A DNA stretch of 64,000 nucleotides from an uncultured Bacteriovoracaceae bacterium (lineage in GTDB: Bacteria; Bdellovibrionota; Bacteriovoracia; Bacteriovoracales; Bacteriovoracaceae): positions 1 to 64,000 of the forward strand of contig CALHLC010000022.1 in the NCBI GenBank assembly GCA_938034385.1. Reading direction: 5' to 3'. Position numbers and translations under genes: made by a program. The notes beneath the pieces were generated by a model that was not told the origin of the DNA, searched no databases, and was given only the letters and a program-made list of their open reading frames with translations. This document shows, piece after piece, positions 32,980 to 37,569 of the stretch. Numbering within the stretch: the stretch's first letter is position 1; the number at the start of each line of letters is the position of its first letter.

Positions 32980-33036
32980 GTTTATCATTGTGTGTCATAA
33001 AAAAAAACAAGTATAATATATTTATTGGGAGTAAAT

Positions 33037-33546
33037 ATGAATAATCTAATGGGTGACTTAGAAATTTCTAAATTCTTTGATCTTAATAATTTAGTAGTAA
33101 CTACAGATGATCAAATAGAAAAAAATATTTCCAAATCTATAAAGTCTCTAATAGAGAAAACTTACTCTCAAAACTTAAAAGTTACTTGCTCGCGCTTTGA
33201 AGCTTTAACAAGTCAAGAATCAAGGTTAGTTCTTGAAGGTGCTGAGAAGATCTATTCATTATTTGAAGCAGATGATTATGAAGTCATAGGAATTATAACT
33301 AAAGATGCTATTGCTCAGTTCTTACAACTACTCTTAGGAGTGAGTAATAAAAAATCGACAGAAGACTTAAGGCATCCAAGTGAACTTGAATTATTCTTTA
33401 TTGACGATTTATTTTCAGAAATTTCTCATCTTTCAATCTGTGATCTTGAAGATTATATATTCAAGGTTAATTTAAAGAGTGATATCTCTTTATCGTGCTC
33501 TTTTTATATGTTTCGATTACCAAAGGTTAAAGGGAATTTATCATGA
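33037..33546 (+). CDS. FliM-core-like protein upstream of flhF
   Basis: 169 residues from ATG 33037, which has GGGAG at good spacing (33025 is an in-frame alternative). The order of elements (an N-terminal helix, a strand around LKVTCSRFEAL, a YEVIGIITKDAIAQFLQLLLG segment, then SELELFFIDDLFSEI) resembles the FliM middle domain (CheC-like fold). There is no C-terminal FliN/SpoA domain and no CheY-binding N-terminal peptide. The stop overlaps the FlhF start (ATGA), so the two are translated together. The FliM link is my fold-level inference, not a firm family call. Confidence 0.45.
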   Translation: MNNLMGDLEISKFFDLNNLVVTTDDQIEKNISKSIKSLIEKTYSQNLKVTCSRFEALTSQESRLVLEGAEKIYSLFEADDYEVIGIITKDAIAQFLQLLLGVSNKKSTEDLRHPSELELFFIDDLFSEISHLSICDLEDYIFKVNLKSDISLSCSFYMFRLPKVKGNLS

Positions 33547-34670
33547 AGCAAAAAACGTTTGAAGGAAACTCTTTAGAAGAAGCACTTGAATCAGTTAGAC
33601 AACATTTTGGTCCAGATGCTGTAATTTTAAAAACAAAAAATTACACAGGACTACAGGGAGCTTTAAGAAAAAATAAGTTTGAAGTTACTGCAGGAGTCTA
33701 TGAGGATAGCCTCTCTAGTCACTCAACCTCTGATTATAGTGAAGATAGAGAAGATGAAGCTTTCTTTTCAGATATAATTGACGACCAGGATCTAAATGAA
33801 GATGTAGAAGGAGTTTCAGAGCTTGTAAAGGAGCAGGAGCGGCGAATTGACCAGTTGGAAATGATAGTTAACAAATTGCAAACAGAACTGAGATCGAGCA
33901 TAGAAAAAAAGAGTGCAGTTTATGAAATCAGAAAGATTTTGAAATCTTTTGATTTATCAGAACAAGTTATTTCACATATTGTAAAAAAAGCTAACTTTGA
34001 ATTAAGCATGGAAGACTTGAAAAATCATAATTTGGTTTATGACTTGGCCTTAAGAGAGATATCTCAAATGATTTTAATATCAAAAGCGAAGTTTTTTGAT
34101 AAAAGATCTGATAATTCATGTTCGATTACTATCGTCTGTTCGCCTCGATCATGTGGTCAAACCTCTATGTTATCTAAAATGGCACAATTAAGTGATGGTT
34201 CACAAATAATCAACTTTAGATTTGATGAACAGAATACTTTTAAAACTAAAATGTTGGGCATGGACGTGGAGAGTGTACATACTTTACATGAACTTGTTGC
34301 GATGATTAATCAAAAGAGAAAGAATCAGAGAAATATATTCATTGATTTAAATGGTAATTCTTATCCAGAAGATCAGACAAAGAAGATTATTAGTTCAATA
34401 AAAAAGAATTTCTCTAATGTCGAAGTACTCTTGTCCCTTTCTGCTATTCATTCTGAACTTTATAATACAAGAATAGCTCAGCGCTATGCTCCGATTGTTG
34501 ATGGATTAGTTATTTCTCACTTAGATGTATGTCTAAATCTTTCTGCTCTTATAAATCTTCAATTTAACGTAAAGCTCCCTTATCTCTTCTTTGGGACAGG
34601 TCCTGTGATACCTCAAGATATTGAGATAGCTTCGAGAGAAAGTATTGTTTCTGAGATTTTTGACCTATAA
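33543..34670 (+). CDS. flhF: FlhF-like protein with degenerate GTPase motifs
   Basis: 375 residues. The N-terminal basic domain is typical FlhF (MKQKTFEGNSLEEALESVR..FGPDAVILKTK), followed by an acidic linker, a coiled coil (about 95-125), an N-domain-like helical region and an SRP-type G domain. In the G domain every nucleotide motif is altered: the P-loop reads SPRSCGQTS (200-208), with the essential Lys changed to Gln206; DTAGRS is DLNGNS (268-273); TKLD is SHLD (325-328). GTP binding is therefore unlikely. FlhF normally positions polar flagella with FlhG; flhG is not next door, while fliA follows directly. Confidence 0.82.
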   Translation: MKQKTFEGNSLEEALESVRQHFGPDAVILKTKNYTGLQGALRKNKFEVTAGVYEDSLSSHSTSDYSEDREDEAFFSDIIDDQDLNEDVEGVSELVKEQERRIDQLEMIVNKLQTELRSSIEKKSAVYEIRKILKSFDLSEQVISHIVKKANFELSMEDLKNHNLVYDLALREISQMILISKAKFFDKRSDNSCSITIVCSPRSCGQTSMLSKMAQLSDGSQIINFRFDEQNTFKTKMLGMDVESVHTLHELVAMINQKRKNQRNIFIDLNGNSYPEDQTKKIISSIKKNFSNVEVLLSLSAIHSELYNTRIAQRYAPIVDGLVISHLDVCLNLSALINLQFNVKLPYLFFGTGPVIPQDIEIASRESIVSEIFDL

Positions 34671-34766
34671 TTTCCAATTACTAAATTGGTCTGCCTTTAA
34701 TCGTTAGCATGTGATATATTTTTCTTCAGAGAGTAATCGATCTTGATCAGATGTATAATATTCTCA

Positions 34767-35546
34767 ATGACAACTAAATTAAAAGACTTAAAAGATTACC
34801 GTGATACAAAGAACCCGCAGGTTCGGCAAAAAATTATTGTTGAATATGCTCCTTTGGTAAAATTTATCGCTCAAAGAATAGCCTCAAGATTGCCATCAAA
34901 TATTGAACTTGATGACCTAATGTCGTGTGGCGTGATTGGACTGATGGATGCTATTGAAAAATTCGATGCTACTCGACAAAATAAATTCAAGACTTATGCA
35001 GAGTTTAGAATTCGAGGAGCTATTTTAGATGAATTAAGGGCCCAAGATTGGGTTCCAAGGTCAGTAAGAGATAAAGCTAAAACGCTTGATAGGGCGGCAG
35101 CTAAGATAGAGAGTAAGATCGGAAGAAAAGCGACAGAAGATGAAATGTGTAAAGAGCTTGATGTGAGTATTGAAGAGTATCATAGCTTATTAAATCAAAC
35201 CCAATCCGTTTCTTTACTAAATATAAATGACTCTAGTTTATTTAAGAAGTGTGATAAGAAATCAATGAAAAAACTAGTTGAGAGTCGTAATGGAGCGAAT
35301 CCATTCACAACAATTAATGATAAAGATCTTAAGCTAAAACTTATGAAATATATTAAGGATCTTCCTGAGAAACAAAGATTAGTACTTTCTTTGTATTACT
35401 ATGAAGATTTAAATCTTAAAGAGATTGGTAAAATCCTAGGTGTTACGGAGTCTAGAGTATCTCAATTACATACTCAGGCAATGATAAGGTTGCGCTCAAA
35501 ACTCAAGTATCATCTTAGTGAAGAAGATGCATTGTCAGCAGCTTAA
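34767..35546 (+). CDS. fliA: RNA polymerase sigma factor of the FliA/WhiG type (sigma-28)
   Basis: About 259 residues from ATG 34767; an in-frame TTG at 34743 would add eight. Regions 2, 3 and 4 are all present: EYAPLVKFIAQRIASRLP and DLMSCGVIGLMDAIEKFD (region 2), ILDELRAQDWVPRSVR (the FliA-type region 2.4/3 junction), and LPEKQRLVLSLYYYEDLNLKEIGKILGVTESRVSQ (region 4 helix-turn-helix). It directs transcription of late flagellar and chemotaxis genes. The anti-sigma factor FlgM is not visible nearby. Confidence 0.92.
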   Translation: MTTKLKDLKDYRDTKNPQVRQKIIVEYAPLVKFIAQRIASRLPSNIELDDLMSCGVIGLMDAIEKFDATRQNKFKTYAEFRIRGAILDELRAQDWVPRSVRDKAKTLDRAAAKIESKIGRKATEDEMCKELDVSIEEYHSLLNQTQSVSLLNINDSSLFKKCDKKSMKKLVESRNGANPFTTINDKDLKLKLMKYIKDLPEKQRLVLSLYYYEDLNLKEIGKILGVTESRVSQLHTQAMIRLRSKLKYHLSEEDALSAA

Positions 35547-35646: not shown

Positions 35647-37569
35647 ATGCTCGCTAAACAATTTAAAGATACTTCCAGAATATATTTTGGCTTTTACTTA
35701 GTATTTACAATAATTACGTTCTTAACGTTTTTTTTATTTGTTCATTTTAAAAATCAGTCATTACAAAGATCTATTAAGTCAGCAAATTTGAAAAATAATG
35801 TTGCAGTTATCGTTAAAAATTCAAGTAAGATAAAAAGAAAGAACTTAGATCAAGCTAGTTTCGTAGAAAACTTAAATTCATTAAAAGAATCAAATCATTT
35901 AATTTTAGATGTTCAAGAAGTTCTTGGTGAAGATGAAAACCATGATAAAAGAGTTGAACTCTATTCCTTCTTTCAAAAAACACCTTTACCAATTAATAAT
36001 ATTAATCAGGTCTGGGAAGGTTATGTTAACAAGAATAAAGACTTTCTTAAATATGTAAAATCTAATAATTGGAAGACTTTGACTAGTATCTCGAAAAGAA
36101 TGGTTGCAAGGACGCCTCAGAAGTTTGATTGGAACAGAATTCCTACCAGATTTATTAATGATAATGAGAAAGATTATCAAGGAATTTTAAAAATTGTTGA
36201 TAAATCAACACTAAATAAAAGTGAAAAAAATTCAGTTAAAGAGCAGATAGAACGCTTGAAAGAAAGTACAAGCTCTGTTCAAAGAAGTCTTGCTCAAATT
36301 ACTCCCTACAAAGGAAAGTATTCGGAATATTTAAACTTTACAGATAAATGGGTTCAAAGATGGAATAAAGTCACTTTAGGTAAAAAGAATGTTCAGGGGA
36401 GTATTATAGGGTTTAAAGATCTATTAACTCTATTGTTTATTATGTTTCTATCGATCATTATGTTCTATTTTATTGCAAGGAAAATAGGAGATTACTTAGA
36501 ACTAAAGACTGAAAAGAACAATCTTTCAATTTTGAATAAACTTATTATTAAAGATGATATCTCTTTTGCTAAGGATTCAAGTTTTGAATATAAGAGTTCA
36601 GTTAAGTCGATGCGAGAGTATATAAAAAGGAAAACAAACTTTGGAAATATATTACAAAAAACATTACCTTACCCGGCGATACTTGTAACTGAAGACTTTA
36701 CGGTTAAGTGGTGTAATGAATTATTTAATGAAACCTTTGACCTTGTTTGTGATAACCCTGAGAAGCTTTGGAATATGTTTAAAGATAAAATTGAAAATGA
36801 TTTAGATTTTATAGAACAAAGCTTTGATACTTTAGTTGCAGGTGTTTCTAAAGTAGATATTAGTGGACAAACATTAAGGTCATATCAAGCTTACTCTTCT
36901 CCTATCGAGATAGGAGGGAAAAAGTATTTAATGATATTCTTTAACTCTTTAAACGAAATCAATGAATCTATTACTTTGCATTCCAACTCTTTGATAAGCT
37001 CCCTTGAGAGGATCTTAGAAGACCTTGAAGATGGAAAAATAGATGCAAATGAATTATCTAATGAATTCTCTGTAAACGAAGTAAAAGTTATTTACGAGAA
37101 ATTATTAGACTTTGTTTCTTATAAACATAATAAAAGTAAGCACCTTGAGAAAAACATTGATAACTTAGGTGATGATTTAAAGAGTTCTCATAATTTATTA
37201 AAAAAGATAGAAGAACTGAACCAGGAGTCTATTGGAGTCTATAAAGATATTTCAGGTCAATTTTCAAACTTGCAAGAGGCCTTGGTAAAATCGATGTCTT
37301 TAAATGAGACCCTTTTTCAAAGAAACTCTGAATCAAACGAGTTATTTAATCAACTCAGAACAGAAGTTCTTGAAGACAACTCAGCTCTATATCTTAAAGT
37401 TTCAAGCTTTCTAGAATCTAGTATTAGTGCCAATGAACAATACAGTGATCATGAGCAAGAAATTATTGATTTACTACAAAATATTGTTGGATCAACAAAG
37501 TTAATAGGAGCTCATCTCACGAGTGTTTCTCAAAGTGTAAAGAGCACTTTGAATGATACTACACATTAA
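35647..37569 (+). CDS. Membrane sensor-like protein with PAS and coiled-coil regions, no output domain
   Basis: 640 residues. Two transmembrane helices (about 11-33 and 259-281) bracket a periplasmic helical domain of about 220 residues, the layout of chemoreceptors and sensor kinases. In the cytoplasm there is a PAS-like segment (about 335-440, PYPAILVTEDFTVKWCNELF), then long coiled coils to the end. No histidine-kinase, GGDEF or receptor signalling-hairpin motif is present. Placed after fliA, it may be a flagellar or chemotaxis accessory sensor; this is inference. Confidence 0.6.
   Translation: MLAKQFKDTSRIYFGFYLVFTIITFLTFFLFVHFKNQSLQRSIKSANLKNNVAVIVKNSSKIKRKNLDQASFVENLNSLKESNHLILDVQEVLGEDENHDKRVELYSFFQKTPLPINNINQVWEGYVNKNKDFLKYVKSNNWKTLTSISKRMVARTPQKFDWNRIPTRFINDNEKDYQGILKIVDKSTLNKSEKNSVKEQIERLKESTSSVQRSLAQITPYKGKYSEYLNFTDKWVQRWNKVTLGKKNVQGSIIGFKDLLTLLFIMFLSIIMFYFIARKIGDYLELKTEKNNLSILNKLIIKDDISFAKDSSFEYKSSVKSMREYIKRKTNFGNILQKTLPYPAILVTEDFTVKWCNELFNETFDLVCDNPEKLWNMFKDKIENDLDFIEQSFDTLVAGVSKVDISGQTLRSYQAYSSPIEIGGKKYLMIFFNSLNEINESITLHSNSLISSLERILEDLEDGKIDANELSNEFSVNEVKVIYEKLLDFVSYKHNKSKHLEKNIDNLGDDLKSSHNLLKKIEELNQESIGVYKDISGQFSNLQEALVKSMSLNETLFQRNSESNELFNQLRTEVLEDNSALYLKVSSFLESSISANEQYSDHEQEIIDLLQNIVGSTKLIGAHLTSVSQSVKSTLNDTTH

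Follow-up and report, generated by a model that had tools for sequence, protein, structure and literature searches.

A class-wide FlhF with altered GTPase motifs, probably a pseudo-GTPase adaptor, is retained in a genus of Bacteriovoracaceae without a flagellum

The window, a 64,000-nucleotide stretch of DNA from an uncultured Bacteriovoracaceae bacterium, encodes an FlhF protein in which key residues of the GTPase motifs have been replaced. The most probable reading, to which a probability of approximately 0.7 can be assigned, is that FlhF is a pseudo-GTPase throughout the class Bacteriovoracia, functions as a nucleotide-independent adaptor, and has been kept for a probable new client in the genus of the window, which lacks a flagellum. 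FlhF has been described as a GTP-driven dimer switch that directs the placement of the flagellum in many bacteria. In Pseudomonas and Vibrio, the binding of GTP by FlhF has been reported to be necessary for flagellar placement (PMC12713375, PMC6092412). The gene in the window and the segments of it that are considered here are:

33543–34670, + strand: putative pseudo-FlhF, 375 aa (open reading frame, FlhF profile matches, AF2 model resembling the NG domains of FlhF and SRP GTPases, dN/dS)
33543–33695, + strand: N-terminal B domain, residues 1–51, predicted β-α-β-β (AF2 secondary structure, identity to G068)
34140–34166, + strand: G1/P-loop S-P-R-S-C-G-Q-T-S, from S200 onward, with Lys replaced by Gln206 at 34158–34160
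34344–34355, + strand: G3 D-L-N-G replacing D-T-A-G, with Asp268 kept
34515–34526, + strand: G4 S-H-L-D, from S325 onward, replacing T-K-L-D, with Asp328 kept

The reading frame is intact and starts with ATG. Profiles and a match in fold place the protein among FlhF relatives over both the B and NG domains. The FlhF model TIGR03499 of NCBIfam matches it with an E-value of 8e-18 and 65 bits, which is under the 174-bit equivalog cut-off, and the match to Pfam SRP54 is confined to residues 254–373, the final third of the protein. A profile of 52 orthologues detects FlhF of B. subtilis (2px0) at 1.6e-9. The AF2 model (built on 52 orthologues, pLDDT 78) is composed of an N-terminal β-α-β-β domain, a low-confidence linker (57–89), and an NG domain; its top match in the PDB is FlhF of S. 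putrefaciens (8r9r, E = 1.3e-13), followed by Ffh and FtsY. The protein thus shares with FlhF of B. subtilis and Shewanella the NG fold, an FID-like N-terminal domain, and the match to the FlhF profile. By analogy, the B domain is FID-like: it putatively corresponds to the part of Shewanella FlhF known as the FliG-interacting domain (FID). FtsY, Ffh, and the FlhF of the window are the only SRP54-domain proteins in the window's own genome. A second, intact FlhF elsewhere in this genome or in the class was considered and rejected, as none was found.

Unlike FlhF of B. subtilis and Shewanella, the window protein lacks the intact set of SRP GTPase motifs G1, G3, and G4 with the insertion box: the P-loop Lys has been replaced by Gln, and the insertion box has been lost along with the Gly of G3 and the Lys of G4, so that no GTP switch is expected. 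A renewed reading of the translation reproduced exactly the SPRSCGQTS with Gln206, DLNG, and SHLD of the original prediction. The accompanying statement that the active site has been lost at every motif is right about the replacements and overstated in the word "every", as Gly205, Thr207, Asp268 of G3, and Asp328 of G4 are still present. In P-loop GTPases, the equivalent of Asp328 reads the guanine and that of Asp268 is the Asp on the magnesium side. The loss of the Lys alone is no proof of inactivity, because Vibrio FlhF with the P-loop substitution K305A still supports the production of flagella, although fewer of them (PMC6092412).

Of the 129 genomes sampled from the family, 121 contain relatives of FlhF; in this sample, family and class coincide. 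The records that carry a name are assigned to Bacteriovorax, Halobacteriovorax, and uncultured Bacteriovoracaceae. In every one of the 81 aligned orthologues from Bacteriovoracia, Gln occupies the position of the P-loop Lys, as it does in four very divergent members of the class. By contrast, all 19 aligned FlhF proteins from sister classes of the same phylum, which are canonical, orthologous, and encoded in the same operon, retain the Lys. Among the 81 orthologues, the first Gly of the P-loop is Ser in 80, the Asp of G3 is followed mostly by Tyr, Leu, or Val and then by Lys or Arg, with the loss of the glycine of DTAG, and the Lys of G4 has mostly become His or Asn. The insertion-box motif of SRP GTPases occurs in none of the 81, as opposed to 18 of the 19 canonical proteins. 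Because substitutions of the same kind run through the whole class, they are not due to chance. None of the 129 class genomes encodes an FlhF that scores above the TIGR03499 cut-off, which is exceeded in 110 of 291 genomes of the phylum sample, class members included. In a tree of 53 sequences, calculated by a quick method and containing some long branches, there is a single change between Lys and Gln, on a branch with 100% SH-aLRT support. Judged from these alignments, the motif loss is a trait of the whole class that originated on the branch leading to Bacteriovoracia. A single decaying gene with intact motifs in its close relatives, the outcome that would have contradicted the original prediction, is not what was found, since the orthologues share the replacements.

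Gly205, Gln206, Asp268, and Asp328 are invariant in the 81 aligned sequences, position 207 is Ser or Thr in 80 of them and Ala in one, and Ile302, Glu305, and Asn308 are invariant residues specific to the clade. These positions could belong to a constrained pocket, the last three as new components of it, in which a guanine nucleotide (GTP, GDP, or an alarmone) is bound and not hydrolyzed, with Gln taking the place of the P-loop Lys. Such a ligand-locked switch is unlikely, however, considering that the insertion box is missing in 81 of 81 sequences, that the first P-loop Gly is almost always Ser and the G4 Lys almost always replaced, and that one further orthologue (L048:7215–8639) has A-Q-F instead of G-Q-T in its P-loop, which takes it still further from a nucleotide site. 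Because of this A-Q-F sequence, it can be argued that residual nucleotide binding is not generally needed. For the pseudo-GTPase as a whole, weak or altered binding of a guanine nucleotide would be conceivable because Gly205, Ser/Thr207, Asp268, and Asp328 remain, and is judged unlikely from the sequence. GTP hydrolysis and the GTP-dependent dimer are, on the same grounds, very unlikely to occur.

FlhA is encoded in 117 of the 129 class genomes, and 116 of these 117 also encode the putative pseudo-FlhF. The operon of the flagellated relatives has the order fliP-fliQ-fliR-flhB-flhA-flhF-flhG-fliA, in which the names from fliP to flhA are based on profile similarity and gene order, and it is followed by the class-conserved gene c5, sometimes with c11 before it. 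The flhF gene of the relatives thus has the same place as that of B. subtilis and Shewanella, between flhA and flhG-fliA, whereas the genus of the window keeps flhF-fliA only. In the window, the downstream genes are:

34767–35546, + strand: fliA-type sigma-28 gene (TIGR02479, 275.6 bits, above the cut-off), with the start taken as the ATG at 34767; the longest open reading frame begins at 34743
35647–37569, + strand: c5, conserved across the class; two membrane segments are predicted and the tail is probably a coiled coil; flagellated relatives also have this gene behind fliA

It has been shown that the Gln of the DQAxxLR helix of FlhG stimulates the GTPase of FlhF (PMC12826062). FlhG of the flagellated relatives has the intact ATPase motif KGGVGKT and no DQAxxLR activator helix, and the genus of the window has no FlhG; a partner with DQAxxLR is therefore found in neither. 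According to a published description (PMC5760749), Halobacteriovorax marinus BE01 carries one polar flagellum, and an isolate of H. marinus (L185) encodes the Gln form of FlhF. Because most carriers encode a flagellum, including the polar-flagellated H. marinus, it seems that an FlhF without an apparent GTP switch serves polar flagellation across the class.

A group from a sister lineage (f6: L116–L118 and L206) exhibits partial erosion, in which the P-loop Lys is kept and DFAG or DFTG and TSLD replace DTAG and TKLD. The eroded G3 and G4 suggest that the motif loss was stepwise, although the pattern is also that of the tree. The flhF genes of this group adjoin an flhG without DQAxxLR, which is a possible intermediate state. 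In the sister classes, the G4 Lys is kept in 8 of 8 cases with a DQAxxLR-containing FlhG, compared with 5 of 17 without it (Fisher 0.0012). The association of the two losses was rejected as independent evidence, because it follows the tree and some of the loci overlap in lineage.

The genus of the window is represented by four genomes, three of which are 94–99% complete, and in none of the four were FlhA, rod and hook proteins (Flg_bb_rod), FliG, or FlhG found. The best scores in searches for FlhG were 61–69 bits in the genus, in contrast to 218–435 bits in four control relatives. MinD/ParA-type ATPases of G000 were rejected as FlhG, as the best of them reaches 63 bits compared with 412–435 bits in three relatives and 218 bits in a divergent fourth. 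A gap in the assembly that hides the flagellar genes was also rejected, because all four genomes are without them and three are nearly complete. The earlier remark that flhG is missing here is thus confirmed for the genus, and this absence is part of a general loss of the flagellum.

The flhF gene has been kept in three of the four species (G000, G068, and G066) and is gone from G067; the retained role is therefore dispensable in G067. Two other aflagellate genomes of high completeness, G065 and G071, have also lost FlhF. In comparison with G068, flhF as a whole has a dN/dS of 0.053 and its G domain one of 0.022; residues 1–51, the FID region, are 100% identical at near-saturated synonymous sites, and the linker varies freely. 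The comparison with G066 is less informative, as the synonymous sites are saturated. The low dN/dS and the identity of the B domain at near-saturated synonymous sites indicate that the protein is under strong purifying selection. The gene could nevertheless be regarded as decaying and as persisting only because little time has passed since the flagellum was lost: the genus has lost its flagellar genes, one species is without flhF, and the proteins have been shortened from approximately 480 aa in relatives to 346–375 aa. This explanation is very improbable, because the dN/dS of 0.05 (0.02 in the G domain), obtained at saturated dS, largely refutes decay, and three species, with identities as low as 59%, still have an open frame. 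Furthermore, the loss of motifs is common to flagellated relatives and therefore predates that of the flagellum.

The gene that precedes flhF in the window is:

33025–33546, + strand: genus-specific open reading frame, 173 aa, with a predicted CheC/FliM/CheX fold, which overlaps flhF by four bases

Three species share the 4-bp overlap. Convincing matches to the upstream protein were found within the genus only, those elsewhere being weak (E-value of 4e-4 or worse), and Pfam searches with this protein and with c5 gave nothing above the cut-off. The top 29 Foldseek matches of its model (pLDDT 62) in the PDB are all CheC, FliM, FliY, or CheX, with a best E-value of 2.3e-4 and TM-scores of 0.3–0.5. 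What may link the upstream protein to this superfamily is these matches in fold; it differs in that it lacks a Pfam match, occurs in one genus, and has a low-confidence model. The coupling of flhF to an upstream gene resembling the FliM core, as put forward originally, is supported by the overlap and by this fold-level similarity.

The tightness of the operon and the conservation of fliA, which is 82–98% identical across all four genomes of the genus, none of which has a flagellum, would be in line with the flhF frame being kept for translational or regulatory signals that its neighbors require, and not for the protein. However, selection acts on the amino acids (dN is much lower than dS), most strongly in the folded domains, with the linker left free, and G067 keeps the neighbors without flhF, which makes this the least credible of the explanations. 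In G067 (L227:6409–6525), flhF has been cleanly removed, with approximately 115 bases between the upstream open reading frame, which persists, and fliA.

The preferred reading is that of the pseudo-GTPase adaptor. The motifs have been lost in all members and the fold is under selection, as is expected of a pseudo-GTPase. The proposal of a retained pseudo-GTPase is strongly supported by the class-wide motif loss, the selection, and the fold, although it describes a property of the class and not a peculiarity of the gene in the window. It has been shown that the first 60 residues of Shewanella FlhF bind FliG and that its NG domain binds HubP regardless of whether GDP or GTP is present (PMC11236974). 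Both the FliG-binding and the HubP-binding parts are kept here. A nucleotide-independent adaptor is the simplest model. As the sequence and the model show, the P-loop Lys and the insertion-box motif disappeared from the G domain, together with the Gly of G3 and the Lys of G4, on the branch that gave rise to Bacteriovoracia, and selection continued to act on the fold. The resulting protein would neither hydrolyze GTP nor pass through a GTP-dependent dimer cycle, and would most likely act as a static adaptor that joins its client to a polar site. Homology and conservation suggest that its FID-like domain may hold a client of the C-ring type, which in flagellated relatives would be FliG, and the NG domain may bind a polar landmark or FlhG without a nucleotide, as in the interaction of Shewanella FlhF with HubP. 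The genus of the window has lost the flagellum and kept the adaptor, which probably serves a new client there. The identity of this client is a guess; gene order makes the overlapping FliM/CheC-fold protein (33025–33546) the best candidate. The previously suggested scaffold that marks the flagellar pole does not apply to the organism of the window, whose genus has no FlhA, FliG, or rod and hook proteins, and is reasonable for the flagellated relatives. It is a tentative extension, with the odds slightly against it, that polar flagellation in the class operates with a switchless FlhF and a helix-less FlhG and that, in the aflagellate genus, this pseudo-FlhF has been drawn, together with FliA and the new FliM/CheC-like protein, into a non-flagellar module.

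A G-domain fold has likewise outlasted its nucleotide motifs in the eukaryotic pseudo-GTPases represented by the pG domains of p190RhoGAP (PMC5593906) and by the dynein light intermediate chain (PMC4359372). These domains are Ras-like and represent an independent loss in another family of GTPases. In a literature search that covered only a minority of papers from subscription journals, FlhF was not found linked with Bacteriovorax, Bdellovibrionota, or pseudo-GTPases. If confirmed by biochemistry, the class, which consists mostly of predatory bacteria, would be a natural exception to GTP-requiring flagellar placement. Culturable predators with one polar flagellum and a switchless FlhF would separate the placing function from the switch and provide a natural test system, and the aflagellate genus offers a second test, that of the role of FlhF without a flagellum. 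Downstream of fliA, the C-terminal part of c5 is approximately 150 residues shorter in the genus of the window.
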